A stretch of DNA of 58,057 nucleotides from Fluviicola chungangensis (GTDB lineage: Bacteria; Bacteroidota; Bacteroidia; Flavobacteriales_D; Crocinitomicaceae). A program made the translations under genes and the position numbers. The stretch covers positions 1 through 58,057 of the forward strand of contig NZ_VLPL01000013.1 of NCBI RefSeq assembly GCF_007558725.1, in the 5' to 3' direction. How positions within the stretch are numbered: the first letter of the stretch is position 1; each line of letters opens with the position of its first letter. Below, in pieces: positions 128 through 14,020 of this stretch. The notes beneath the pieces are model-generated. The model saw nothing but the letters and a program-made list of their open reading frames with translations. It searched no databases and had not been told where the DNA came from.

Positions 128-312
128 TCCGTGAGATTGACGTGGGTTTGCTTTCTACGAGGAAAGGTTCGTTGAATATTGACTTAAGTTCGTTTTCTAC
201 GAGCATAAGTTCGTTGGAGATTGGCGTAGGTTTGGTTTCTAAGAGTAAAAGTTTCCGTGAGATTGATGTGGGTTTGGTTTCTACGAGGAAAGGTTGGTTG
301 GAGATTGCAACT
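128..312. repeat. degenerate 42-bp tandem repeat (about 4.4 units)
   Basis: Four full units of 41-43 bp and a partial fifth run from about 128 to 312. Each unit begins near 'cgttgagattg' and ends near 'ctacgaggaaaggtt'. In the plus frame from 106 the unit is 14 codons and no unit contains a stop, so a repetitive peptide with a 14-residue period could be read (an open frame to 324). There is no ATG and no convincing ribosome-binding context; the first usable start would be a GTG at 142. The repeat abuts the stop of the methyltransferase gene on the other strand. It is most likely a non-coding satellite or the remnant of a repeat protein. Confidence 0.6.
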
Positions 313-313
313 C

Positions 314-1897
314 TTATTTCCTAGTTCTCTTTTCAATCAATTTATGTCTAATATTTTTAATCTTCTCAAGATCTTTTTTACTTAATCCGATTGTTCCATT
401 CAAAATTTCAAAATCGTTCATATCAAGAATTTGATTTATATTATCCTTTTTATTAAATGCCTTGGCAAAGTCTTGAAATTTTTCATTGTTTATTTCTAAA
501 TATGGAAGAGGGAGTTTTTTAAACTCACTTGGAGTTAATTCCAAGACTCCCCCTCCGTAATATCTACCTTCTATTTCAGAAAATAATAAAGTGAAAGAGT
601 TGTAAAAAGAGAATATAAAACTATTTAAATCAAAACCTTCTTTCATTTCAATTTTATAAGCTGAATCCGTAACTAAAGCTTGAGAGTCATTTTTCAAAAG
701 TTTTGGATACATATGACTACGCTTAAAGAAAAATGCTTCAGGCACAGTCGAAATATTAGGTATCACATACCAATTATTTCTAATACGGGACTTGTATCTT
801 TTAGGGATTTCTAATTCTTCTCCAATTAATAAATATTTTTTCAAGTCGGAAGATATCGTATCATCATTATTTAATTGAAGGAGCCTTGAAGGATAAGTTG
901 AATTTTCTAGGTTTAGAAAATCCTTTTGACTGAATACTAGATTACCGTTTACAAACTGACCTTTTTGGACTATAGGTTTTGTGTACTTCGATAAATTATA
1001 TTTTTCTTCTGTTTCTTTATTTATTATAAAAAATTTATTAGATGCTGTAACAATTCCGGGCTTAGATTCACAATAATGATTAACTAATTTCAACTTGGAT
1101 TTTACTTCATCTAAAAAAACTAATTCATCGGAGGTCAAAAAATGATGTGTCCATTTAATTCTTGATGATACTAAATTATTATTAGAATTTAGTTTAAATG
1201 AGTCGTCTACTAATTCTTGTTTGTCTACAATGTTTGTAAAAAACTCTCCTTTATCTAGAGACTTTTTGTAAGCAAACAAAACTATTGTGTCCTGTCCCTT
1301 ACATTCAAACATAAGATCATTAAATGTAAATATTTCAATTCTCTCAAATTGAGTTTTTAAATACTCTCTTATTTCTTCAGCGAACTTGACTTGAAGTAAT
1401 TCAGAGGGCAAAATAAAAGCTAGAACGCCATCATTTTTCAATAAGGTATTAGACTTTATCAAGAATGTGGTCCAAATATTTTTAACAGAAATCTCAGAAA
1501 GATTCTCTTGCGAATGAATCTCTTTACTCAATTCAATTTGCTGAGTGCTTAATCTATTCTTTTTTACATAAGGCGGGTTTCCGATAATAGCTGTAAACTT
1601 AGTTCTTGTTGAGAAATTTAAATAATCAATATTTTTGAATGTTGCTTTCCCCTTACCCCACTTTTTAGAAGCAATTTTTAATTCATTTTCATTAATATCA
1701 ATTGCTGTAAGTTTAAGCGAATTAATATCACAATTATTTAGAGACTCGATAAATGCCCCATCTCCTACGCTTGGTTCCAGTAAAGATAAATTTGATTTTG
1801 TCTCTATATAAGACAAAACTCTTCTCGACACGAAATCAGCCAGATATTTTGGAGTATAATATGACCCTGTATTTTTTCTATCCATTGTAAAATTCAA
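314..1897 (-). CDS. N6-adenine DNA methyltransferase (TaqI/Eco57I-like)
   Basis: This 527-residue class I SAM-dependent DNA methyltransferase would protect self DNA by methylating adenine N6. Motif X-like sequence (TGSYYTPKYLADFV) lies at about 10-23, the SAM-binding motif I (LEPSVGDGAF) at about 40-49, and the catalytic motif IV NPPY at about 106-109. The C-terminal half (about 250-510) resembles a TaqI-type target-recognition region, with the usual terminal signature around GRYYGGGVLELTPSEFKKLP. It is the last gene of the four-gene operon, overlapping the HNH gene by 20 bp. There is no fused nuclease domain, so restriction would depend on the upstream HNH protein. Methylated base and target are not deducible from sequence. 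It is too short and lacks the partners to be a BREX PglX. Confidence 0.88.
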   Translation of the reverse strand: MNFTMDRKNTGSYYTPKYLADFVSRRVLSYIETKSNLSLLEPSVGDGAFIESLNNCDINSLKLTAIDINENELKIASKKWGKGKATFKNIDYLNFSTRTKFTAIIGNPPYVKKNRLSTQQIELSKEIHSQENLSEISVKNIWTTFLIKSNTLLKNDGVLAFILPSELLQVKFAEEIREYLKTQFERIEIFTFNDLMFECKGQDTIVLFAYKKSLDKGEFFTNIVDKQELVDDSFKLNSNNNLVSSRIKWTHHFLTSDELVFLDEVKSKLKLVNHYCESKPGIVTASNKFFIINKETEEKYNLSKYTKPIVQKGQFVNGNLVFSQKDFLNLENSTYPSRLLQLNNDDTISSDLKKYLLIGEELEIPKRYKSRIRNNWYVIPNISTVPEAFFFKRSHMYPKLLKNDSQALVTDSAYKIEMKEGFDLNSFIFSFYNSFTLLFSEIEGRYYGGGVLELTPSEFKKLPLPYLEINNEKFQDFAKAFNKKDNINQILDMNDFEILNGTIGLSKKDLEKIKNIRHKLIEKRTRK

Positions 1898-2507
1898 TCA
1901 GTTCTTTATGATATAAAAAATACTCTAAACTATATTCTTGAGCTTTTGATTTAATAAGGTTATATCTACTTGATCCATTTATTTCTTTTGCTAGCAAAAC
2001 TACTAAAGCTTCGATTGCAATACGAGTTTGATTTAAATTCCAAAGCAATTTAATTGAATAATCTCGCTCATCAAAGCCGAAAGCTTTAGTAGCCATCCAT
2101 TCACCTAATTTAGTTTTCCACATAATCCCACCGTCAGATGTTCTGTAAAGATGAGTTGAATCATAAGCAATGTCACAAGGATCAACAAATCCCTCATCTC
2201 CCTTTGAGAAAACAGTTTCACTTTGACTTGGCCACTTATCTAATTTTTTATTATTACAAAATTTACAAGAATAGACTAAATTATCATATTGGCAATACCC
2301 AATCTTTCCCGATAACTCAAAAAAACTCTTTGGAATAAAATGATCCACTTCAAAATAAGTATGACGAAAACCATCATATGAACCACACCATCCGCAATGA
2401 GAATTGAAATCCTCCTTTAAATCTGGTTTATGCTCACTCCAGTTCTTACCAATTGGGTTTTTAGTTGGTGTTATTCTTCTAGTTGGTAATGGAATCCTTA
2501 CAGTCAT
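1878..2507 (-). CDS. HNH endonuclease, probable restriction enzyme of the operon
   Basis: This 209-residue protein carries a complete HNH (beta-beta-alpha metal) nuclease core. A CxxC pair lies at C38/C41, the catalytic VDH at D55-H56, an Asn at N76 and a second CxxC (C81/C84) followed by NNKK. The two CxxC pairs would hold a structural zinc. The remaining C-terminal 110 residues are helical and unrecognised, perhaps for DNA or partner binding. Its start codon overlaps the stop of the receiver gene (ATGA) and its end overlaps the methyltransferase start. Position between a regulator and a methyltransferase suggests it cuts unmethylated or modified DNA; that role is inferred. Confidence 0.85.
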   Translation of the reverse strand: MTVRIPLPTRRITPTKNPIGKNWSEHKPDLKEDFNSHCGWCGSYDGFRHTYFEVDHFIPKSFFELSGKIGYCQYDNLVYSCKFCNNKKLDKWPSQSETVFSKGDEGFVDPCDIAYDSTHLYRTSDGGIMWKTKLGEWMATKAFGFDERDYSIKLLWNLNQTRIAIEALVVLLAKEINGSSRYNLIKSKAQEYSLEYFLYHKELIEFYNG

Positions 2508-3163
2508 TTCTCTTCATTTTTTGAAATTAAAGACTTTAAAAACTCTTCAGCTTCTCTTCTTACTTTTGAAATATTTTCTAGCTGATCCAAAGAGATTAAT
2601 TGTTCGGGAAGCTCATTATTTTTAGTTCTATCCAACCCCTGTAAATCTCTTTGATTTTTTAGAAGAAGATCTTTTTCTATTGATGTCAATCCTTCTCTTT
2701 CTCCTTTTTCAAGGAGTGTCTTGATTGTATCCTTTTTCTTTTGAATATGACTCTTATATTGTTCTATACTTTTTTTTAATGTAGTAACAAAACGTTGTAA
2801 ACTATCATTGTCGCGTGTAACATCGTCCTTATCAAATATAATTTTCCAGTCTTCTACAAAATCTTCGGCATCAGGCACCCTACTTGTGAAAATAATATGT
2901 GGAAACAACGGTTTTTTCTCGTAAAACTCACTCTCAATTTTATCACCATTAAACGTTACGATTCCTTTATCACTAAGTTTATAATCTATCATTAATAAGT
3001 CAATTTCCGATTCGTAAATTTGATTCATTAAATTATCAAATTCAGTTCCTCTTGGAATTTTATATCCAATAACATTTAATCCATAGGGTTTAAGTCTTCT
3101 TTGAAAAAGCTGCACTTGCGCCTCATTTTCATCAACATAGCCAATAGTGTAAGTGGTATCCAT
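2504..3163 (-). CDS. receiver-domain response regulator without DNA-binding output
   Basis: Residues 1-120 read as a CheY-like receiver: acidic pair D11-E12, phosphoacceptor D60 at the end of LLMID, T93-S94 after a hydrophobic strand, and K112 in FDKDD. Residues 120-219 are rich in Lys/Glu and look like a helical or coiled-coil region, not a helix-turn-helix, so the output is more likely protein-protein control than transcription. It sits 3 bp after the GHKL/histidine kinase gene and overlaps the HNH gene by 4 bp. The likely role is to receive phosphate from the kinase module of its neighbour and gate the nuclease, which is inference. Receiver assignment is from motif spacing only, since overall similarity is weak. 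Confidence 0.7.
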   Translation of the reverse strand: MDTTYTIGYVDENEAQVQLFQRRLKPYGLNVIGYKIPRGTEFDNLMNQIYESEIDLLMIDYKLSDKGIVTFNGDKIESEFYEKKPLFPHIIFTSRVPDAEDFVEDWKIIFDKDDVTRDNDSLQRFVTTLKKSIEQYKSHIQKKKDTIKTLLEKGEREGLTSIEKDLLLKNQRDLQGLDRTKNNELPEQLISLDQLENISKVRREAEEFLKSLISKNEEK

Positions 3164-3166
3164 AAT

Positions 3167-5545
3167 TTATCGTTTTCTGAAAGGGAAATCAATTTTAACA
3201 GAGAACCCAATTTCGGGATCTAATATATCAATAGTTCCATTATTATCATCAATAGCTCCCTTGACTAAATACATTCCCAATCCTGTACCAATATCTTCAC
3301 CCTTTTTGTTTTTCTTTGAGGTAGTAAAAGGAAGAAAAATTTCTTCTTTTTCCACAAAAACATCAGATAAACCTGTTCCATTGTCCGAATATAAAATTTC
3401 AATAGAGTTAGAAATATTTAAATAGATCTTTACTTTTCTATCTCTAATTTCATTCAAATTACTAAAGGCATCAAGAGAGTTATTTATTAAATTAGTGAAA
3501 ATGGTATCCATATCCATTTCAAAGGCTCGAAATTTATAGTCTTCAGCAATTATACTTTCGCTAATTTCAAAATCAATGTTACGGTCTTTAAAAATTGCTT
3601 TCCAATTTTTGGATAATGATCTAAAATAATTTGAAAAATCTAACTGATTTCTTTTCCTTTTATCCTTCTTTACGGCCGTAAGCGAGTAATCTACCCAATG
3701 CCTTATTTTTTCACTGTCATCAATCAGCAATTTCATAATATTTGTCCCATCAACATAATCAGAAGACTTTTTAATATTATTTGGCACTACTCTTTTGAAT
3801 ATTTCTTCAAGAGATTTAATTTCAGTAGAATTATTCCTAACTTCTTTTAATTCATGTGCAAAAGATGAAACTATTAATCCTAAACTGGCTAAGGCCCTAA
3901 CTTGAACATTATCTTCGTTATCCTTTTCTAATTGTTCTTCATCAATTTGTTTAAAGGTTTCCTTAAATGCTTCTTCATAAGTCTTTCTTTCTTCCTCCTC
4001 TTTATGTTCTGCAAATAAGTCCTTAGATTTCTCTTCACCATAAATCTTTTCTTCAACAACCTTTCTTTCTTGAATTATTTTATCAGCTAGAGCCTTTGCA
4101 CGACGGTTAATTTCCTGTTCTTTTTTCTTTTCATCCTCTTCTTTTTTAAATAAGTAAAATGGATGCAAAATTCTAGATCTATCGGTCTCAAATTCGTTTA
4201 TTATTCCAGTAATTATTTTTTTAAATGTATCAAAAGCATCATTTTCAACGAGGGCACCTCTATCAGATTTATCGATTAACTGAGGATTAGTCTTTCGAGA
4301 AATTGTTATAATTCCAGCTGTAGATTCAGGATTAACTCTCCAATCCCCAATTCTTTGTCCTACACCAGCAGGACTTTGCGCTCTTCTAACACCAAGACTC
4401 AACCAATCATTTCCAGAATCACCATAAGGTCGTACCCGAAATGAATCACGATATATTTTAACCCCTCCAAACCTAAATAAAACCTCCCTTCTTTCTTGAG
4501 TATTGATCGATTTATATGGATACTCTTCTTTTTTAGAAACCGAATATTTTACATAGTAAAATGAAACTTCAAACGAACCAACGTCTTTTAATAGCTTTAA
4601 TGATTCTTCCGAAGATTTCCATTTTAAAACATTATGAACAGACTTAGAATAAGAAAACTCTTTCTGATTTAAAGTGGCTAAATCATATGGAGACTTTTTA
4701 TCATTAAATAAAAAAGCATACTTTTTATTTACAAGCGGCAAATCAAGTTCATTCCGAACAATTGTAAAATCAATATTTAAACTTTTCGCATCATAACTAG
4801 CTACTATTTTATAATCATAGTCATTAAAGAAAGCTGTCTCTACTAATCCAAATTCTTTTGGCTTTTGAACATGAAATAAGTTTACATCAAATGGTACATT
4901 TAATTCTTTTGGTGGAATTAAAGCTTCCAAACTTTTAAAAACGTTTTTTATATCAGCGTCTGACCATTCATCCTTTAAATTCGAAATCCTAAGTATAGTA
5001 CCATTTTCCCAATCAAGAATTGAACATATTTCTTCAACATTTGAATAAGGTAAATATCCTTTCAATAACGAATTGATATTAATCTTTTGAGGTTCTAAAT
5101 CTGCATTTATATCTGATATTGATTTATCAGAATCATCAAACTCTTTCCAATCCATTCTCCAAGTGTATCCTCCTCTATCCTTTTCTGTCTTAGAAAGCGT
5201 CCACATTTCAGAGGTAAAACCTAGCCGATCCAGAGCAAATCTACCAATACCCTTAGCACCAGTTTTTATTCTATTATCGGTCGAAACATAATCTTGTTCT
5301 TTATTACCAGTTCCAATTTTCATCCACTGATTTTCAATGGTGTCTAGATCCATACCATCACCATTATCAATAATAAAAATTGAACTGTCAGTTTTTTTTA
5401 TATCGAATACAACAATACATTTTTTAGCATCTGCATCATAGCAATTCTTCACAAGTTCAATGATTGCCCCTTCAGGATTGGAAAAGTTTTCTCTCCCTAA
5501 TAGTTTCCCCGCTCTTGCAGATACTTTAAAAGCTATTTTGGTCAT
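3167..5545 (-). CDS. MORC-like GHKL ATPase fused to a histidine kinase
   Basis: This 792-residue protein has two separate GHKL ATP-binding modules. The N-terminal module (about 5-390) is Hsp90/MutL/MORC-like: N-box ELVKN at 30-34, DNGDGM at 60-65, and the lid loop TGAKGIGRFA from 95. Residues about 455-550 are a charged coiled coil. The C-terminal module is a histidine kinase: H-box FAHELKEVRNN with H564, N-box NLINN near 686-690, G1 box DNGTGL from 721, F-box FLPFTTS and G2 box GTGLG from 753. The start was placed at the ATG at 5545 (MTKIAFK), because the conserved GHKL fold begins there; an ATG at 5617 would add 24 unlikely residues. No transmembrane segment is visible, so it is probably cytosolic. 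It heads the operon. Confidence 0.82.
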   Translation of the reverse strand: MTKIAFKVSARAGKLLGRENFSNPEGAIIELVKNCYDADAKKCIVVFDIKKTDSSIFIIDNGDGMDLDTIENQWMKIGTGNKEQDYVSTDNRIKTGAKGIGRFALDRLGFTSEMWTLSKTEKDRGGYTWRMDWKEFDDSDKSISDINADLEPQKININSLLKGYLPYSNVEEICSILDWENGTILRISNLKDEWSDADIKNVFKSLEALIPPKELNVPFDVNLFHVQKPKEFGLVETAFFNDYDYKIVASYDAKSLNIDFTIVRNELDLPLVNKKYAFLFNDKKSPYDLATLNQKEFSYSKSVHNVLKWKSSEESLKLLKDVGSFEVSFYYVKYSVSKKEEYPYKSINTQERREVLFRFGGVKIYRDSFRVRPYGDSGNDWLSLGVRRAQSPAGVGQRIGDWRVNPESTAGIITISRKTNPQLIDKSDRGALVENDAFDTFKKIITGIINEFETDRSRILHPFYLFKKEEDEKKKEQEINRRAKALADKIIQERKVVEEKIYGEEKSKDLFAEHKEEEERKTYEEAFKETFKQIDEEQLEKDNEDNVQVRALASLGLIVSSFAHELKEVRNNSTEIKSLEEIFKRVVPNNIKKSSDYVDGTNIMKLLIDDSEKIRHWVDYSLTAVKKDKRKRNQLDFSNYFRSLSKNWKAIFKDRNIDFEISESIIAEDYKFRAFEMDMDTIFTNLINNSLDAFSNLNEIRDRKVKIYLNISNSIEILYSDNGTGLSDVFVEKEEIFLPFTTSKKNKKGEDIGTGLGMYLVKGAIDDNNGTIDILDPEIGFSVKIDFPFRKR

Positions 5546-5719
5546 TAAATTTTTATTTAGAAGAAAAAAATCTTTTGTCGAAATTAACAATTTTGAGAAC
5601 AATATCCTTAATTGCATATTTGCCCTTAATATAATCTACTTTCTTGTATTTTCGCAAATAACTTTCAAGTTAATTCCCCTACCTTTACCCCATCCAAAAC
5701 TATTTGCTAAATTTATTCC

Positions 5720-6361
5720 ATGAACGTTCGGTTAACCAAGGATCAGAAGATACAAATCGCCAATTCGGATGATGTGTTTGGCATCATGCAGCAGATTTTA
5801 TTGCGTGAAAACAGGATCGGTAGGATCCAGGAGCACTTTTGGATCGTGGGGCTGGACAAAGCACACAAGATCCTGTTCATTGAATTGCTGGCTTTGGGTA
5901 ACGATAACCGCGTGCACATCAAAGCTCCGCAGGTATTCCGAATGGCGATCTATAAAAATGCGCCGAAAGTGATCTTGGTTCACAACCATCCGAGCGGAGT
6001 CATGAAACCCGGCGAAGATGATTTGAAAACGACCGACCGCTTGCTGAAAGCCGGGGAAATCATTGAGATCGATGTGATTGATCACTTAATCATTTCGGAG
6101 AAAACTTATTTCGGATTCAACCAAGCCGGACTTATTGAAGAACTGCGAAACAACGGTGCTTACCGCATTGTGGAGCGCGACCGTGCCGAATTGGAGAAAT
6201 GGCGTTTGGACCAGGAAAAGGAAAAAGGAGCGTTGGAAGAAAAGAAAACCCTCGCGAAGAAATTGCTTGCGCTCAATACCATGTCGGCAGAAGAAATCCG
6301 GAAACTAACGGGGTTGGGAATCCGGGAGATGAATAAGATTTTGAAAGAGCTGGAGAAATAA
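5720..6361 (+). CDS. radC: RadC-like JAB/JAMM-domain protein
   Basis: This 213-residue protein has a JAB (RadC-type) domain at about 15-135 with the metal motif HNHPSG and a following Asp in PGEDD, about ten residues on as in RadC. It lacks the usual N-terminal helix-hairpin-helix part of RadC (UPF0758) and instead carries a Lys/Glu-rich linker and a C-terminal helical segment (about 180-213, ending in an HTH-like SAEEIRKLTGLGIREMNKIL). It is divergent from the defence operon with 174 bp between starts. RadC-family proteins are often found in mobile and defence islands but their reaction is unproven. An imperfect -7 box (TAAATTTA) lies 4 nt before the ATG. Confidence 0.8.
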   Translation: MNVRLTKDQKIQIANSDDVFGIMQQILLRENRIGRIQEHFWIVGLDKAHKILFIELLALGNDNRVHIKAPQVFRMAIYKNAPKVILVHNHPSGVMKPGEDDLKTTDRLLKAGEIIEIDVIDHLIISEKTYFGFNQAGLIEELRNNGAYRIVERDRAELEKWRLDQEKEKGALEEKKTLAKKLLALNTMSAEEIRKLTGLGIREMNKILKELEK

Positions 6362-6394
6362 CAGTTCTCGGTTCAATACGCCACGCCACCTCCC

Positions 6395-6577
6395 TCTTCA
6401 CGAGCAGTGCTCGCTCTTCTCCTCAAGGAGGGAGATTCAATTCCCCCTTTGAAGGGGGATAAAGGGGGATGGCTTGTGTGGGCGTCCTACGCGAGATAGC
6501 CACCCCTCTCGGTCTCCCCTCAAGGGGAGAGGACTTGAGACCCTCCTTCTTTTAGCACTTATATTTTCAAAGGGGGA
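6395..6577. repeat. cluster of intergenic palindromes (MITE-like or dispersed repeats)
   Basis: Between radC and bioA there are perfect or near-perfect inverted repeats at 6401-6413 (CGAGCA arms), 6417-6433 (CTCCT/AGGAG), 6443-6458 (CCCCCTTTGAAGGGGG) and 6513-6530 (TCTCCCCT/AGGGGAGA with a 2-nt spacer). An inverted partial copy of the 6443 motif occurs at 6566-6576 (TTCAAAGGGGG). Base composition is much more C/G-rich than the flanks and no reading frame is credible. Short GC-rich dispersed repeats of this type are common in Bacteroidota intergenic DNA. It may terminate transcription from both sides, since the flanking genes converge. Confidence 0.65.
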
Positions 6578-6583
6578 AACAAT

Positions 6584-7864
6584 TCACAAACTATCCAAAA
6601 AATCCAGCAACACCACGTGTAATTTATCCAATTCCTCTTCTGAAATGCAATAAGGCGGATTTAAATACAGGATATTTCCCAATGGGCGGATCAAACACCC
6701 TTTCTCCAGGAAAAAATCATAGGCGCGGTCGCGGATGGAAGAGAAATAGTTGTTTCCCTCTCCTGTTTCCACTTCGAAACGAAGAATTGTTCCGCACAAA
6801 CCGATCTCTTTCACTTTCGGATGTGTTTTCAAGGCTTCAATGAAATACCGGTGGCGCTCTTCGATCCATTCGATGGAATCCCAGGTTTCCGGCTGTTCAA
6901 ACAAATCCAAACTGGCATTCGCTACCGCACAAGCCAAAGCACTTCCGGTAAACGAATGACCATGAAGCAAAGCCTTTGCTGTTTCGGGATGAAGGAACGC
7001 ATTGTAAATTTCGTCTGTTGCAACAGTCAATCCCAAAGGAAGGATTCCTCCCGTCAAACCTTTCGACAAACAAATGATATCCGGTTGCTGCTCACAGAAA
7101 TTATGGGCAAACAATTTACCAGTCCTTCCCCAGGCCGTCATCACTTCATCAAAAATGACCAGGGCATGGTATTTTCTTGCCAGGGAGACGAAGGCGTCCA
7201 GCCAGGCCGCATCGTACATGCGCATTCCAGCTGATCCCTGCACCAACGGTTCCACAATAATTGCAGCCACCTCGCCGGATTTCAGGATTTGCTCTGCTTG
7301 TATCAATGCCTGGCTTCTGGCATCGTCTTTGGGGAAATCAATGAAATCCACATCAAAGAACAAATGTTCGAAAGGTTTGTTAAAAGTTCCGCGCTGACCA
7401 ATGGACATCGCTCCGAACGTATCTCCATGATAGGCACCATCCAATGCAATCACTCGTTTTTTGGATTCATTTTTATTGTACCAGTATTGAAATGCCATTT
7501 TCAAAGCCACTTCTACTGCCGTTGAACCGTCATCAGAAAAGAATACTTTTTCCAGCTTTGCAGGAAGCAGGGAACTGATGCGCTCAGCAAGTTTGATCGC
7601 CTGCGGATGAGTAGCTCCTGCAAAGATGACATGATCAAGTTGTGAAAACTGCTCATTCAGGGCCTGAGCCAGGTAAGGATGACCATGTCCGTGGACATTG
7701 ACCCACCAGGACGAATTCGCATCAATGTATGTTCTTCCGTCCGAATCAAAGAGTGTAGTTGCTTCTGCCCGCACAATATGCAGCGGGTCTTTCGCTGTTT
7801 GCATTTGTGTAAAGGGATGCCAAACGTGTTTTTTGTCTTTTTCTAGTGCAGTTGTTCTATCCAT
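6584..7864 (-). CDS. bioA: adenosylmethionine-8-amino-7-oxononanoate aminotransferase
   Basis: BioA (426 residues) transfers the amino group of SAM to KAPA to make DAPA, the antepenultimate step of biotin synthesis. It is a class III PLP aminotransferase. The N-terminal HVWHPFTQMQ motif is diagnostic of BioA, GAYHGDT lies in the middle, FDEVMTAWGRTG contains the cofactor-contacting Asp, and the Schiff-base Lys is in CLSKGLTGG. Length is normal. The start codon overlaps the bioD gene by 22 bp, so bioD and bioA form a two-gene biotin operon transcribed leftward. bioB and bioF are not in the window. Confidence 0.96.
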   Translation of the reverse strand: MDRTTALEKDKKHVWHPFTQMQTAKDPLHIVRAEATTLFDSDGRTYIDANSSWWVNVHGHGHPYLAQALNEQFSQLDHVIFAGATHPQAIKLAERISSLLPAKLEKVFFSDDGSTAVEVALKMAFQYWYNKNESKKRVIALDGAYHGDTFGAMSIGQRGTFNKPFEHLFFDVDFIDFPKDDARSQALIQAEQILKSGEVAAIIVEPLVQGSAGMRMYDAAWLDAFVSLARKYHALVIFDEVMTAWGRTGKLFAHNFCEQQPDIICLSKGLTGGILPLGLTVATDEIYNAFLHPETAKALLHGHSFTGSALACAVANASLDLFEQPETWDSIEWIEERHRYFIEALKTHPKVKEIGLCGTILRFEVETGEGNNYFSSIRDRAYDFFLEKGCLIRPLGNILYLNPPYCISEEELDKLHVVLLDFLDSL

Positions 7865-8457
7865 AATTTGGCTGCTTGCTGTATGCTTTCTTTTGAAAAT
7901 TCGTTGATTTCAGGAATCGTTGTAATGGAAAGATCCGGGAAGTGTGAATGATATATCCGCTCAGAAGCAGCATTGCTGTCTCCGTTAACAATTAAACCGG
8001 CAATACGGATCTCGCGTGACATCAATGCGTTTAAAGTCAATAAAGTATGATTGATACTTCCCAAATAATGCTTTGTTACCACGTAAACAGGAAGTTCCCA
8101 CAGCTGGAACAGATCGATGTAGCACAATCCTGCATCATTCAATGGGACCATTACTCCTCCTGCGCCTTCAACAATGGTTTGTTTCAAAAAACGGGGCAGA
8201 TCAAAATCCGCTTCGGTCAGTTCAATCCCGTCCAATCTCGCTGCTTCATGCGGCGACATCGCATGATTCAACAATTTATTTGCGGGAATAATAGTTGTTT
8301 CAGAAGTATTGGATTTAACAAAATCGCTGTCCAAAGCATGTAAATCTCCGGCCTGAACAGGTTTCCAGTAATCTGCTTTCAATGCTTCGCACAAAACAGC
8401 ACTTACAACTGTTTTCCCCACTTCCGTTCCGATTCCGGTTACAACATATGATTTCAT
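7843..8457 (-). CDS. bioD: dethiobiotin synthetase
   Basis: BioD (204 residues) closes the ureido ring of DAPA with CO2 and ATP to give dethiobiotin. The N-terminal P-loop TGIGTEVGKT is the family signature, followed by the KPVQAG motif (about 32-37) and VEGAGGVMVPL (about 96-106), which binds substrate and metal. Length matches the family. It is upstream of and overlaps bioA. The 24-bp gap to the next upstream gene (8483) does not show an obvious promoter, so read-through from that secreted protein gene is possible. Confidence 0.95.
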   Translation of the reverse strand: MKSYVVTGIGTEVGKTVVSAVLCEALKADYWKPVQAGDLHALDSDFVKSNTSETTIIPANKLLNHAMSPHEAARLDGIELTEADFDLPRFLKQTIVEGAGGVMVPLNDAGLCYIDLFQLWELPVYVVTKHYLGSINHTLLTLNALMSREIRIAGLIVNGDSNAASERIYHSHFPDLSITTIPEINEFSKESIQQAAKLWIEQLH

Positions 8458-8482
8458 ATTTACTTTCTTTCCGGGATGAATA

Positions 8483-9031
8483 TTACTTAGAAATCAAATC
8501 CAAGACCGGTAGGCTTAAGATAAACCAATCACCACCAAGAACTATAACATCCGATTCACCAGTAACTTCTTTTACTTTTTCACCTACTTTGATCTCCATA
8601 TCCACTCGCACCCAAAATCTTTGATTAGGTACAGTTGCTGTTTTTGAGACCAGGTTAAACTTAACAATTGTCACCTTTTCGTATTGGTCCAATTGGGCCT
8701 GCAACAAATCTCCACGCCAGTATTGGGACATAACAACCTTTTCCCATAACTTGTCTTTACGTATCTGTGAAGCAAAAAAGTAGTTCACAACTGACTCGGG
8801 CGTCCTTTCATAAATCCCTTCATACGTCATAAAGTTCTTCGCATTTTGCGGAGTGATAACAATTGGTTGTTCTATAGCTGTCCAAACAAGGTTATTTTGG
8901 GGAACCGAAACTTTCGCGGTTTGAGGTTCTTCTTTCACAGGCACTGGAGCTAGCTCAATGGTTTCTTCCTGGGAAAAAGAAAACGCCGACAAAGCAACAA
9001 GCATAATCGTAAGAAATATTCTCATCTGCAT
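8483..9031 (-). CDS. secreted protein of unknown function
   Basis: This 182-residue protein starts with a signal peptide (MRIFLTIMLVALSAFSFSQ) cleaved after the FSQ typical of Bacteroidota exported proteins. A short Glu/Pro/Val linker follows, then a domain of about 130 residues with no family I recognise. Two ATGs (9031 and 9025) are possible; the first is preceded by an A-rich stretch. It lies between pheT and bioD on the same strand. Probably periplasmic or surface-associated. Confidence 0.7.
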   Translation of the reverse strand: MQMRIFLTIMLVALSAFSFSQEETIELAPVPVKEEPQTAKVSVPQNNLVWTAIEQPIVITPQNAKNFMTYEGIYERTPESVVNYFFASQIRKDKLWEKVVMSQYWRGDLLQAQLDQYEKVTIVKFNLVSKTATVPNQRFWVRVDMEIKVGEKVKEVTGESDVIVLGGDWFILSLPVLDLISK

Positions 9032-9054
9032 GTTTTTTTATTTTAAACTGCGCT

Positions 9055-9094
9055 AATCCGCCACGGCGGATTTCTATCGTCAGCCGCGGCTGAC
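9055..9094. repeat. two adjacent perfect GC-rich palindromes
   Basis: AATCCGCC/GGCGGATT (9055-9072, 2-nt spacer) and GTCAGCCGCGGCTGAC (9079-9094) lie immediately after the pheT stop codon. There is no T-run, so rho-independent termination is uncertain; they resemble short dispersed intergenic palindromes and could stabilise the pheT transcript end. Confidence 0.6.
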
Positions 9095-9096
9095 TC

Positions 9097-11529
9097 TTAT
9101 CTCAACTCAGCCCCCAATTGTTTCTCCAGTTCCGCCCGGATCGAATTCATGATTCCATCAACCTGACTGTCTTTCAACGTTTGTTCCGCATCCTGGAACG
9201 TAAATGAAACGGCATAGGATTTCTTTCCTTCCGGCAGGTTCTTCCCTTCGTACACATCAAACAAACCAACCTTTTGAAGGATCTTTCTATCCACTTTTTT
9301 GGCGATTTGCTCGATCTCAGCGAAGCGGACTTTCGAATCCAATAGCAAAGAGAAATCGCGACGAACCTCGAATGTTTTCGGTAATTCTTTGTACTGCACT
9401 TTTGCCAGTTTCAAGGAATTCAAAATAGCATCCCAATCCAGATCAGCCACAAAAACATCTTGTTTCACGCCAAAATGCTTCTTCACTTTCGGAGTTGCCC
9501 AGCCCAAGGTTCCAACTACGTTTTTCAAAATGCGAATCTGGTAACCATCTGCCAACACGTTTTGGTCAGGCAATGCTTCTTCCTGAATGAACGAAGCCAA
9601 ACCAAGACGCTCAAACACATTGGAAACCACTCCTTTTAAAGTAAACAAAGTCGATTTTTCTAATTTTTGAGCCCAGGATTCTTCTTGCTTATTTCCGGTC
9701 ATACAGATCAATAAACGCTTGTTCTCCATGTAATTACCATCCTCAAATGAATAGGTCTTACCAAACTCAAACAAACGCAAATCCGGATTCTGACGGTTCT
9801 GATTGTGCGCAATTGTTTCCATTGCCTGGAACAACAAACTTTGACGCATCACCGCCAAATCCTGGCTCAAGGGGTTCAGCATACGCACAGCCTTCTCCAC
9901 CGGAAACTGAGTTCCCCCAAGATTTTCGGCATATTGCGGACTGGTCAGTGAATTATTCATCATTTCATGGAAGCCCATTCCAGCCAAAACTTCTGCCAGG
10001 TTCACTCCCAAACGCTCCAGGTCCGGTTTTTCACTCACTACCAAAGAAGTATTTAACTTTTCCGGAAGCGGAATTTGGTTGAAACCGTAAATGCGCAACA
10101 CTTCTTCGATTACGTCGACCTCGCGGTCCACATCGATGCGATAATTCGGTACGGAAAGCTCCAATGCTTCACTGGTTGAAGAAAGCACCTCGAAATCAAG
10201 AGAGATTAAAATGTTTCGGATCACTTCCGGGGCAATTACATGGCCCAAAAGCTGGTTAATCCGATTATAACGAAGTGTAACCGTTCTTTTCTGAATTGGA
10301 TTCGGATACAGATCTACGACCTCCATTCCCACTTTTCCTCCGGCAACTTTCTGAATAAGCTGTACCGCTCGTTCCAAAGCATACGGAACTAAATCCACAT
10401 CTACACCGCGTTCAAAACGGAAACTCGCATCAGTAGACAAGCCGTGTCTTTTCGCTGTTTTACGCACGGAAACCGGTTGAAAATAGGCCGCTTCTAAAAA
10501 CACATCTGTTGTACTATCCGTAATTCCCGAATGATCTCCTCCAAAAACTCCCGCAATACACATCGCTTCTTTTTCGTTTGCGATCACCAGGTCTTTTTCG
10601 TTCAATTCACGCTCCACGCCATCCAGGGTAATCATCTTCTCTCCTGCTTTCGCAGTACGGACAATTACTTTTCCGTTCACAACAGAAGCATCAAATGCAT
10701 GCAAAGGAGTTCCCAATTCACGCATCACGTAATTCGTTACGTCCACCACATTGTTGATCGGAGATAAACCAACGGCTCTCAGTTTATTTTGCAGCCACGC
10801 CGGAGAAGCTTTCACTTCTACTCCGCTGATGGTGATCCCCATGTAGCGCGGGCATTTCTCTGTATTTTCTACCGAAACGGAAACAGGCAATTCTGCTTCT
10901 TTCACCGGCTTTTTCGTTTCTTTTAATTGCAATTTTGCCGTACTTCCTTCGTGGCAAGCCATATACGCCAACACATCGCGTGCAACACCTATGTGTCCCA
11001 TTGCATCCGCCCTGTTGGGAGTTAATCCGATCTCAATTTGCACATCGCTTTCCAACTCCAGGTATTCAGCAGCCGGTGTTCCCGGCTTTGCATTTGGATC
11101 CAAAACCAAAATTCCATCGTGACTTGTTCCCAAACCCAATTCATCTTCGGCACACAGCATTCCAAACGATTCCACATCACGGATTTTGGAAACTTTCATT
11201 TTTAACGGCTCATCCGGTTTCGGGTATAAAATGGCTCCAACCTGGGCCAGAATTACTTTCTGTCCAACGGCTACATTCGGTGCACCACAAACAACCTGGA
11301 GAATTTCTTTCCCATTGTTTACTTTGGTTACTTTTAGTCTGTCTGCATTCGGATGCTGCTCACATTCAATCACTTCGGCAACAACCACTCCTTCCAGACC
11401 ACCTTTTACGCTCTCGATGGTTTCAAACCCTTCCACTTCCAAACCTGTGTCCGTTAAAAGCTGATCTAATTCTTCGGGAGATTTATGAACCGGTAAAAAC
11501 TCGTGTAACCAAGCGGATGAAATTTTCAT
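9097..11529 (-). CDS. pheT: phenylalanine-tRNA ligase beta subunit
   Basis: The beta chain of the alpha2-beta2 phenylalanyl-tRNA synthetase is 810 residues from the ATG at 11529 (MKISSAWLHEFLP), which fits the conserved N-terminus; the ATG at 11553 would add eight unconserved residues. In order it has a tRNA-binding OB-like domain (about 40-150), B3/B4 editing domain (about 210-390, with PINNVVDVTNYVM and LDGVERELNE), B5 domain (about 405-475), a catalytic-like core, and a C-terminal FDX-ACB anticodon-binding domain (about 715-810, with ...FEVRRDFSLLLD). Length is normal. A perfect -7 box (TAAATTTG) lies about 23 nt before the start. The alpha subunit gene is not adjacent, which is usual in this phylum. 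Confidence 0.96.
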   Translation of the reverse strand: MKISSAWLHEFLPVHKSPEELDQLLTDTGLEVEGFETIESVKGGLEGVVVAEVIECEQHPNADRLKVTKVNNGKEILQVVCGAPNVAVGQKVILAQVGAILYPKPDEPLKMKVSKIRDVESFGMLCAEDELGLGTSHDGILVLDPNAKPGTPAAEYLELESDVQIEIGLTPNRADAMGHIGVARDVLAYMACHEGSTAKLQLKETKKPVKEAELPVSVSVENTEKCPRYMGITISGVEVKASPAWLQNKLRAVGLSPINNVVDVTNYVMRELGTPLHAFDASVVNGKVIVRTAKAGEKMITLDGVERELNEKDLVIANEKEAMCIAGVFGGDHSGITDSTTDVFLEAAYFQPVSVRKTAKRHGLSTDASFRFERGVDVDLVPYALERAVQLIQKVAGGKVGMEVVDLYPNPIQKRTVTLRYNRINQLLGHVIAPEVIRNILISLDFEVLSSTSEALELSVPNYRIDVDREVDVIEEVLRIYGFNQIPLPEKLNTSLVVSEKPDLERLGVNLAEVLAGMGFHEMMNNSLTSPQYAENLGGTQFPVEKAVRMLNPLSQDLAVMRQSLLFQAMETIAHNQNRQNPDLRLFEFGKTYSFEDGNYMENKRLLICMTGNKQEESWAQKLEKSTLFTLKGVVSNVFERLGLASFIQEEALPDQNVLADGYQIRILKNVVGTLGWATPKVKKHFGVKQDVFVADLDWDAILNSLKLAKVQYKELPKTFEVRRDFSLLLDSKVRFAEIEQIAKKVDRKILQKVGLFDVYEGKNLPEGKKSYAVSFTFQDAEQTLKDSQVDGIMNSIRAELEKQLGAELR

Positions 11530-11626
11530 TGTCGTTTTTTTTTCGAAGCTCAAATTTAAGAAAAAGCACAGAAAGCGAGGTTTAATTTGACATAAAAGCG
11601 TTAAATTCGTTCACACTAATTTTTGA

Positions 11627-14020
11627 ATGAAATCCCTTGTATTACAATTCTTGTTTCTATTGATTTTTTCCCTTTCCTGGGGACAGGAGAAAGCGACTAT
11701 CAGTGGGTATATTCATGAAGAAAGTTCGGGAGAGCCCATTATCGGCGGACAGGTTTTTGTTCCTTCTATTCAGAAGGGGGCGGTTACCAATGAATTCGGG
11801 TTTTATTCCTTAACGCTTCCCAAAGGTGCGCACCAACTCATTTACCGTGGCGGCGGATTTCCGAACGATACCCTGCAAATCAACTTAATGCAGGACACTA
11901 TGATCAGCACCGGCTTGGGTGAAACGATCAAAATCGATGAGGTAGAGATCAATGCAAAACGGGAAGATAACGTAAACTCAACGAAAATCGGCCAAATCGA
12001 ACTGGACATTAAATTGATCAAAAAGTTACCTGCTTTCCTGGGTGAAGTAGACGTCCTGAAAACCATCCAGCTACTTCCCGGTGTTTCATCGGTTAGTGAA
12101 GGCGGACAAGGATTTTATGTACGTGGCGGCGGACCGGACCAAAACCTGGTCTTATTGGATCATGCGCAAGTCTACAACGCTTCCCACCTGTTTGGTTTCT
12201 TCTCGGTTTTCAACCCGGATGCCGTAAAAAGTGTCAACCTAATCAAAGGAAGTATGCCGGCGAGTTACGGAGGAAGACTTTCATCCGTTCTGGAAGTAAA
12301 CATGAATGAAGGGAACAATAAAAAGTTCAAGGTAACAGGAGGATTGGGTTTAATTTCATCCCGTTTGACCCTGGAGGGACCGATCGTAAAAAACAAGGGA
12401 TCATTCATTGTTTCTGCAAGAAGAACTTACGTTGATTTGTTTATGAAAGCATTTATCAAGAAATCGAGTTCCTTCTACGGATCAAGCTATTATTTCTATG
12501 ATCTGAATGCCAAATTAAATTATCGCCTGGGGCCGAAAGACAAAATCTACCTCAGTGGATATTACGGAAAGGACCTGTTCAATTTCGGGAATAAAAAAGA
12601 CGACTTCAGTGTCAAAATGCCCTGGGGAAATGGAATTGCTGCTTTGAGATGGAACCACCAATTCAGCAGTAAATTATTCATGAATACGACCGCAACGCTC
12701 ACCGACTATCTTTTCAGTTTCGGGTCCGAGCAGGACCAGTTCAAATTTCAGCTAAAATCGGGAATCCGTGATTATGGGGGCAAGGTGGAGCTTTCCTATT
12801 TTCCGAACACGCGGCATTCTATCAAAATGGGAGTCGATTATTTATTTCACACCTTTACTCCTACCAGTGTTTCTGCTTCGCAGGACGATGTGGTTTTTGA
12901 TACCGGTCTGGCCCAGAAACTCTACGGTCATGAATCTGGTATTTACATCCAGGATGAAGTGGACATTGCTTCCTGGTTGCGCGTGAATGCAGGAATTCGG
13001 GTAAGCATGTACCAATTTACAGGTCCTTTCACGCGCTACTACAAAGGAATAACCGGGCACACCGATTCCACAAAAACATATAAAAAGGGCGAAATCATTC
13101 AATCGTACTTTGGATTTGAACCACGCATTTCCGCGCGCTTTCTTTTAAAAGATAAAAGCTCCATCAAAGCAGGATTTACTTACAACAACCAGTATGTGCA
13201 CCTGGCCAGCCTGAGCGCTGTTTCACTTCCGACAGACATTTGGTACCCGAGTACAGACAAAGCACATCCGCAAAAAGGATGGCAGGCAAGTTTGGGATAT
13301 TTCCGCAATTTCAATGATAATAAATGGGAGACATCCGTGGAAGTTTACTACAAAAAGATGCAAAACGTCATTGAATTTAAACAAGGAGCTTTGCCTTCCG
13401 ATAACGTCAATGACAATACCGATAACTTATTGGTTTACGGAACCGGATGGAGTTACGGCGCGGAATTTTTCATCAAACGAACATTTGGCAAATTAACCGG
13501 ATGGATCGGATACACCCTGGCCAAATCGGACCGTTATTTCCCGGATATCCAGGACACCAAATACCCGGCGAAATACGACAGGCGGCATGATTTGACCTTA
13601 GTCGGAACTTACGAACTGAACAAACACTGGACGTTCGGATTTTCATTCATTTACGCCTCCGGAAACACCTTGACCCTTCCGAACAGCTGGTATTTCAACA
13701 ACCAGGATTTGCTTTTCAATTACGGAAAACGAAATTCTACGCGCATGGCCCCTTATCACCGATTGGACCTTTCGGCAACCTGGTACGATAAACCTACCAA
13801 AACGAAAATCGATAAGAAGACGGGCGAAAAAACAGAGGTCGTGAAGAAATTCAGGCAAAATGTCGCTTTCTCGATCTACAACGTTTACAACCGCGCGAAT
13901 CCTTATTTTTTGTATATTGATAACGATGGAAGTATTCAATCGAACGATTTTAAAATTTCGGTCAAACAAGTGTCTTTATTTCCAATTTTACCCAGTGTCA
14001 CATGGAATTTCGAGTTTTAA
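11627..14020 (+). CDS. TonB-dependent receptor with carboxypeptidase-regulatory-like N-terminus
   Basis: This 797-residue outer-membrane receptor takes up a ligand with TonB energy. A signal peptide (1-19, ending SWGQ) is followed by a CarboxypepD_reg-like beta-sandwich (about 24-95), a plug domain (about 115-225, including QLLPGVSSVSEGGQGFYVRGG), and a 22-strand type beta-barrel to the aromatic C-terminus (VTWNFEF). It overlaps the following DUF4249 gene by 19 bp. TonB receptor plus DUF4249 lipoprotein is a recurrent pair in Bacteroidota. Ligand is unknown; there is no SusD-like partner, so it is not a standard glycan-uptake locus. Confidence 0.92.
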   Translation: MKSLVLQFLFLLIFSLSWGQEKATISGYIHEESSGEPIIGGQVFVPSIQKGAVTNEFGFYSLTLPKGAHQLIYRGGGFPNDTLQINLMQDTMISTGLGETIKIDEVEINAKREDNVNSTKIGQIELDIKLIKKLPAFLGEVDVLKTIQLLPGVSSVSEGGQGFYVRGGGPDQNLVLLDHAQVYNASHLFGFFSVFNPDAVKSVNLIKGSMPASYGGRLSSVLEVNMNEGNNKKFKVTGGLGLISSRLTLEGPIVKNKGSFIVSARRTYVDLFMKAFIKKSSSFYGSSYYFYDLNAKLNYRLGPKDKIYLSGYYGKDLFNFGNKKDDFSVKMPWGNGIAALRWNHQFSSKLFMNTTATLTDYLFSFGSEQDQFKFQLKSGIRDYGGKVELSYFPNTRHSIKMGVDYLFHTFTPTSVSASQDDVVFDTGLAQKLYGHESGIYIQDEVDIASWLRVNAGIRVSMYQFTGPFTRYYKGITGHTDSTKTYKKGEIIQSYFGFEPRISARFLLKDKSSIKAGFTYNNQYVHLASLSAVSLPTDIWYPSTDKAHPQKGWQASLGYFRNFNDNKWETSVEVYYKKMQNVIEFKQGALPSDNVNDNTDNLLVYGTGWSYGAEFFIKRTFGKLTGWIGYTLAKSDRYFPDIQDTKYPAKYDRRHDLTLVGTYELNKHWTFGFSFIYASGNTLTLPNSWYFNNQDLLFNYGKRNSTRMAPYHRLDLSATWYDKPTKTKIDKKTGEKTEVVKKFRQNVAFSIYNVYNRANPYFLYIDNDGSIQSNDFKISVKQVSLFPILPSVTWNFEF

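Follow-up and report, generated by a model that had tools for sequence, protein, structure and literature searches.

An operon of Fluviicola chungangensis joining a MORC-like histidine kinase and a receiver to an HNH nuclease and an adenine methyltransferase

Restriction is usually regarded as constitutive. A locus of Fluviicola chungangensis in which a histidine kinase and a receiver share an operon with a nuclease and a DNA methyltransferase raises the question of whether restriction could be placed under the control of a phosphate relay. We analysed this locus in a stretch of 58,057 bases (the window) that runs from the start of contig NZ_VLPL01000013.1, in a genome of 4.27 Mb and 19 contigs. 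Four minus-strand genes lie there between the contig start and a RadC-type gene; an original prediction, made from the letters alone, had proposed them as a phosphorelay-linked restriction-modification (R-M) operon, and all four were located by open reading frame (ORF) and Pfam analysis (Table 1). Our results suggest restriction gated by a phosphate relay as the best reading, and we hold the chances to be evenly divided that the operon is a phage-defence-type R-M system with a two-component relay of its own that controls the nuclease.

Conservation of the gene set

Relatives of the kinase were sought in 395 genomes of the phylum, 15 of which gave a match at E<=1e-20, and in genome contigs (7 loci), viral contigs (13 loci), plasmids (9 records, 8 of them fetched) and genomes of the genus. 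The set used for comparison comprised 27 loci: 25 scoring more than 300 bits against the kinase profile (including locus L112), the window and L124. The residue counts given below were taken from 26 aligned rows.

The comparison showed that the kinase, receiver and HNH genes follow each other in this order and on one strand in 26 of the 27 loci. The gene set is therefore a conserved unit, and a chance cluster is ruled out; the original prediction had been staked on this order recurring elsewhere. An adenine methyltransferase was present in 25/25 loci where the contig allows checking (the contig of L101 stops at the HNH gene). A homologous methylase lies directly downstream at 19 loci (cut by the contig end in L099 and seen as 44 aa only in L024), another Eco57I-type methylase takes the downstream place at two (L032 and L124), and an Eco57I-type methylase is found upstream instead at four (L028, L103, L104 and L116), so that the methylase is swapped or relocated at six loci while the other three genes remain joined.

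The carriers are Bacteroidota, Alphaproteobacteria, Deinococcus, a Cloacimonadota metagenome-assembled genome (MAG) and viral contigs. Named hosts include Tamlana, Polaribacter, Dyadobacter, Bacteroides finegoldii, Ensifer adhaerens, Salipiger profundus and Deinococcus gobiensis, and the host MAGs are filed as Flavobacteriaceae, Aureispira, Lentimicrobiaceae and Cloacimonadota. Across 16 loci, pairwise distances of the kinase correlated with those of the receiver (r 0.96), the nuclease (0.90) and the methylase (0.90); the values were 0.91 for receiver and nuclease, 0.84 for receiver and methylase and 0.78 for nuclease and methylase, with 0/2000 permutations for each protein pair. The four proteins therefore travel together, kinase and receiver most tightly. 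A close kinase was found in five of the 395 phylum genomes, including that of F. chungangensis, and the same five gave the strong matches to the HNH family, all five inside an operon with kinase and receiver, the next match falling from 199 to 42 bits. Nuclease and methylase without kinase and receiver were not found as a pair in any of the 395 genomes.

Table 1. Genes of the operon and the adjoining upstream region, in window positions
Feature	Positions	Strand	Evidence
Kinase: MORC/paraMORC-type GHKL+S5-like ATPase module with histidine-kinase core	3167..5545	-	Pfam, motifs, model, PDB matches
Stand-alone receiver with long C-terminal helices	2504..3163	-	Alignment, model, PDB receiver domains
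HNH nuclease	1878..2507	-	PF01844 (E 3e-6); H56, N76 and N85 kept
N6-adenine DNA methyltransferase, Eco57I/BseCI type	314..1885	-	PF22837, PF07669, PADLOC MTase_II, BseCI, NPPY
Region upstream of the operon	5546..5674	.	Same-genus synteny ends at 5674 (blastn to genome G403, locus L119)

The encoded proteins

The kinase and receiver genes are 3 bp apart and the receiver and nuclease genes overlap by 4 bp, as first proposed. The 20-bp overlap proposed for the nuclease and methylase genes holds only for a TTG start at 1897 (527 aa); since position 2 of the methylase family profile aligns with the in-frame ATG at 1885, the ATG start (523 aa) and an overlap of 8 bp are more likely. The overlap is likewise 8 bp in L026, L029, L099 and L124.

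The kinase is 792 aa long from an ATG at 5545, where its relatives also begin, although its ORF opens at 5617. It matched the Pfam families HATPase_c_3 (E 9e-21) and HATPase_c (E 2e-14) and is composed of an ATPase module (about residues 1-460), long helices, H564 and a CA domain (about 633-792). H564 is the histidine of an H-box-like FAHEL stretch and is kept in all 26 rows, as are N685, N689, G723 and G753, with D721 and G725 in 25/26 each; E30 and N34 of the N-terminal GHKL domain are kept in 24/26 rows each (one gap row, one change). A structure model of moderate confidence, with a predicted local distance difference test score (pLDDT) of 75.7, below 50 in the helix just before H564, and a predicted template modelling score of 0.57, placed in succession a GHKL domain, an S5-like domain, helices 436-586 bearing H564 and the CA domain. 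Foldseek ranked MORC2 first and ZraS second for this model, and VIA-align gave 19.2 for Hsc82, 18.9 for TRAP1 and 18.9 for Morc3 over about residues 9-464, where the matches are tied, and 18.6 for HK853 over residues 566-791. Common ATPase folds fill both lists, so Z alone cannot tell MORC from Hsp90 kinship. As modelled, the N-terminal half is MORC2/MORC3/Hsp90-like and the C-terminal half HK853/ZraS-like. The GHKL/histidine-kinase fusion of the original prediction was borne out by the two ATPase matches, the invariant H564 and the structural matches of the kinase core, and its MORC/paraMORC link received support from the fold. The kinase has the GHKL and S5-like module with intact ATP motifs that marks paraMORC/MORC-type proteins, and kinase and receiver together have the phospho-accepting histidine in a kinase core and the D/D/T/K receiver residues of a two-component pair.

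The receiver (219 aa) has D11, E12, D60, T93 and K112 as key residues. D11, E/D12, D60 and T93 are kept in 26/26 rows and K112 in 25/26. Its model (pLDDT 84.7) shows a REC fold in which D60 follows strand 3 and T93 ends strand 4; beyond the fold come long helices only. Of 99 PDB chains matched at E<=0.001, with receiver domains appearing from E 3e-5, the best 50 are receiver-containing entries by title or PDB code. No DNA-binding domain was found in the Pfam scan or the structure model, in agreement with the original prediction, and a classic transcription factor is ruled out on this ground.

The nuclease (209 aa) keeps H56, N76, N85 and D/E55 in 26/26 rows, while C41 and C84 are present in 23/26; C38, C41, C81 and C84 are perhaps zinc ligands. 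It matched PtuB of Septu (PADLOC, E 1e-11), and TIGR02646 below the cut-off (E 7e-4). The methylase matched M_Eco57I_C (PF22837, E 2e-34) and Eco57I (PF07669, E 3e-17), MTase_II of PADLOC (E 1e-143) and the BseCI methylase (E 9e-27 over residues 3-215), and its NPPY motif is invariant (10/10). These matches, with PF01844, agree with the nuclease and N6-adenine methyltransferase that had been proposed.

This nuclease and methylase could suffice as an R-M pair, and more distant methylases of the family were without a nearby kinase match in 8/8 fetched loci. The operon could then be an ordinary type II R-M system, with nuclease and methylase cutting and protecting alone and with the two-component pair tuning expression or protecting the host as a control protein does. 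We consider this unlikely, because the receiver has no DNA-binding domain, because every strong HNH match in the phylum genomes comes with kinase and receiver, and because it is the methylase that is exchanged while the other three genes stay joined.

Described systems and related cassettes

A two-component-like pair beside R-M genes, HEF_HK (PF19191) and Response_reg_2 (PF19192), was published by Bellieny-Rabelo et al. 2021 (PMC8011034); the passages available from that paper describe the linkage of kinase and receiver and an architecture of HATPase_c_3, HEF_HK and HATPase_c. C5 methylases are conspicuous there, HNH_2 is the most frequent endonuclease domain, and the gene-family network also includes N6/N4 methylases. 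Our operon has in common with it a soluble double-GHKL kinase followed by a receiver, beside methylases, with HATPase_c_3 at the N-terminus, HATPase_c at the C-terminus and the receiver gene adjacent. The kinase aligned end to end with an alignment of eight HEF_HK kinases (hhalign probability 100, E 1e-42, 704 columns), and a profile-profile comparison of the receiver with Response_reg_2 gave a weak match (probability 40, E 3e-4, 74 columns). In the Pfam scan, however, the kinase did not match PF19191 nor the receiver PF19192 at E<=0.1, the genome of F. chungangensis gave 0 matches in the PF19191 search, and strict membership of HEF_HK/Response_reg_2 is ruled out. The kinase has 792 aa here and 966-1001 aa in eight fetched HEF_HK loci, the receiver 219 aa here and 525-575 aa there; the one upstream gene tested among those loci (L060) is a C5 methylase, whereas our operon has a methylase of N6 type and an HNH nuclease as a separate protein, and the HNH-type and HEF_HK kinases fall in separate clades.

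The paraMORC families in restriction operons (Iyer, Abhiman, Aravind 2008; PMC2292703) share with our operon a GHKL and S5-like module, a methylase and, in some, HNH genes. The main text of that paper, as available, has no occurrence of 'receiver' or 'two-component', both of which apply here, and the passages on the paraMORC module do not describe the fusion to a histidine-kinase core seen in our kinase.

Detocs likewise builds phage defence on a two-component system. Its receiver domain is fused to the effector, unlike the HNH protein, which is without a receiver in Pfam and matched HNH families and, weakly, T1RH-like_C. The best-described Detocs effector is a PNP that cleaves ATP (PMC11249213, in the part available), whereas our operon has a separate HNH effector, a methylase and a MORC-like kinase, and so differs from Detocs as had been supposed. 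No Detocs name stood among the PADLOC matches listed, the Detocs models of that release being unconfirmed. A Septu or retron HNH is ruled out, as no partner genes stood among the matches listed, which for Septu means no PtuA for the kinase, the receiver or the methylase (best 25 of 30 matches for the last). With type II R-M the operon shares the Eco57I/BseCI-like methylase and differs in its HNH nuclease with kinase and receiver.

PADLOC 2023 recognised the methylase (MTase_II) and gave partial matches for the GHKL part of the kinase and for the nuclease; proteins were matched individually, without system rules, and no single named system uniting the four genes was among the matches listed. 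The literature searched, which took in few subscription journals and no preprints, gave among the papers listed no further one on the four-gene set, and none on Detocs with restriction or on phosphorelay defence. The original prediction knew of no described defence system with exactly this set, in agreement with the PADLOC matches listed; the theme, a double-GHKL kinase and a receiver beside R-M genes, was already in the available passages of the 2021 paper (PMC8011034), and the operon is therefore less new than supposed. It is a variant of that published theme with an HNH clade of its own.

Fourteen further double-GHKL kinases aligned end to end with the kinase (E 3e-89, 679 columns). At 20 of 21 distant loci (excluding L042, which is truncated where its contig stops) the directly downstream ORF starts with a receiver-like acidic motif, judged by eye, L067 being the exception. 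A receiver was confirmed there by profile in L117 and L038, and Pfam Response_reg matches below the cut-off were obtained for L117, L039, L110, L111 and, weakly, L125, the remaining loci being judged by eye. Methylases upstream of these kinases are of C5 type by Pfam in L033, L037, L043, L110 and L111 and of N6 type in L038 and L109; the upstream gene of L115 is annotated as a cytosine methylase, and for L040, L067, L068, L108, L117 and L118, without a Pfam scan, no methylase was identified directly upstream. A PAPS-reductase-family gene (Pfam) lies upstream of the kinase in L035:11122-12249, perhaps a link to DNA sulfur.

On a tree of 54 rows, a single branch (96/90, 94% of 200 bootstrap trees) separates the 25 HNH-type kinases from all other rows, and the 8 HEF_HK kinases form another group (100/100); several branches are long and the deeper forks unsure. 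The number of changes needed on this tree was 4 for TPxCD, 3 for caspase-like and 2 for HEPN-like effectors, so effectors are not strictly sorted by clade. The TPxCD-like motif is shared by the C-terminal parts of receiver-like proteins of L033, L034, L036, L037, L043 and others; this part gave no Pfam match where scanned (L033, L036, L040, L043 and L117), and HEF_HK receivers carry a similar invariant CD pair. One such cassette is a second one in the genome of F. chungangensis (G000:C1, L043:7275-12058), with a C5 methylase of 413 aa, a double-GHKL kinase of 805 aa and a protein of 429 aa that begins like a receiver and contains a TPxC motif. Proteins of about 220 aa after kinase and receiver (L125_10, L126_8, L111_10 and L115_8) keep HG and C residues and are presumably caspase/CHAT-like, and the receivers in L039:9625-10554 and L110:8280-9185 continue into a fused C-terminal part whose RNxxAH motif we take to be HEPN-like; neither kind gave a significant Pfam match. 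In L038:7284-8264 a metallo-beta-lactamase-fold protein follows N6 methylase, kinase and receiver.

The presumed HEPN-like and caspase-like effectors, and the fact that Detocs, a two-component defence, can act in this way (PMC11249213, available part), would fit abortive infection, in which a phage-triggered relay would release the nuclease on host and phage DNA alike and the methylase would be the guard or the immunity component. This, too, appears improbable to us, since a methylase beside the nuclease at every checkable locus fits discrimination between self and non-self better.

Genomic setting and the proposed relay

The G+C content of the operon is 0.302, compared with 0.419 over 5700-58057, and the lowest value among 189 equal-sized windows elsewhere is 0.389, in line with the AT-rich block first noticed. 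Window positions 5674-13762 are collinear with the same-genus genome G403 (79-84% identity by blastn), and this synteny ends 129 bases upstream of the kinase start. Beyond the break, the G403 contig runs on for some 1 kb with a different ORF, also AT-rich; the last approximately 70 bases of this contig resemble what we take to be a sequencing adapter, which gives a false ORF start. A search of 14 genomes of the genus turned up one more close kinase (42%), that of G407, which belongs to a separate kinase, receiver and HNH operon with a different Eco57I-type methylase; G406 and G403 have distant kinases only, after C5 methylases (judged by eye). Near the contig start, window positions 133-307 form a 4.2-copy array of a 42-bp unit, and a stretch resembling it (76%) lies in the same genome at G000:C12:477603-477747.

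Ten ORFs were taken from the flanks of the operons of seven viral contigs (L100-L106). Eight match phage families of known category (one weakly, E 1e-5), among them two integrases, tail proteins, a CII-like activator and a replication initiator, with phage genes in the flanks of L100-L104. Of the other two ORFs, one matches families of unknown function only and one matches none. On the Salipiger plasmid, Tni-type transposition genes lie about 6 kb upstream with an IS66 in between, and a search of phage records gave two partial matches only. With other cargo at the same site in G403, phage flanks and Tni-type genes, the setting of the operon is mobile and defence-like. A role outside defence, in regulating DNA methylation or repair, for which the available part of Iyer 2008 (PMC2292703) offers possible repair uses of some MORC relatives, is quite improbable given the patchy spread (5/395 phylum genomes with a close kinase or HNH), the AT-rich block with its synteny break and the carriage on viral contigs and plasmids.

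In the relay-gated restriction that we favour, the adenine methyltransferase would, by its family, mark host DNA. The MORC/Hsp90-like module, judging from its fold and from known MORC proteins, would dimerise on ATP and clamp or sense either DNA or a sign of invasion, with unmethylated or phage DNA as candidates. The long helices would relay this change to the histidine-kinase core, H564 would be phosphorylated, and the phosphate would move to D60 of the receiver, as the invariant residues suggest. The receiver would then bind and switch the HNH nuclease directly rather than through transcription, because its output consists of helices only and its gene adjoins or runs into that of the nuclease, and the nuclease would cut unmarked DNA. 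In distant cassettes the receiver carries an additional fused domain, as in L117 (by profile) and in L039 and L110 (by the Response_reg matches below the cut-off), which also argues for output at the protein level.

Several observations weigh against this model. The close relative on the Rhizobium phaseoli plasmid (L112, 7620-10247) has its kinase split in two ORFs and no match to a receiver, nuclease or methylase within about 4.8 kb. The kinase did not match any DHp/HisKA model in the Pfam scan, E565 is replaced by D in two of the 26 rows and by H in one, E30, N34, D721 and G725 each deviate in one row, and K112 of the receiver is F in one of 26. Proximity to known defence genes, proposed as a check at the outset, was not borne out: a PADLOC scan of ten ORFs flanking the cassettes showed no consistent known defence neighbour, three of them matching at E<=0.001 (a PDC-M54A candidate, a short SEC-C-end match and a DEDDh match) and seven having no match.

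A broader proposal, which we advance more tentatively than the control of the nuclease itself, is that a histidine kinase carrying a MORC-type DNA clamp detects foreign or unmethylated DNA and licenses a restriction nuclease by phosphotransfer to the receiver. The cassette would then belong, as one branch, to a larger family of relay-gated defence cassettes (methylase, MORC-kinase and receiver) with exchangeable effectors: HNH, receiver-fused TPxCD, HEPN-like, caspase-like and metallo-beta-lactamase.

If true, a bacterial relative of the MORC ATPases would control restriction through phosphorylation, and the role of prokaryotic MORC/paraMORC ATPases would be tied to a readable output, the phosphorylation of a receiver. 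One signalling cassette would then serve several effectors, and the 26-locus set supplies operons for direct testing.

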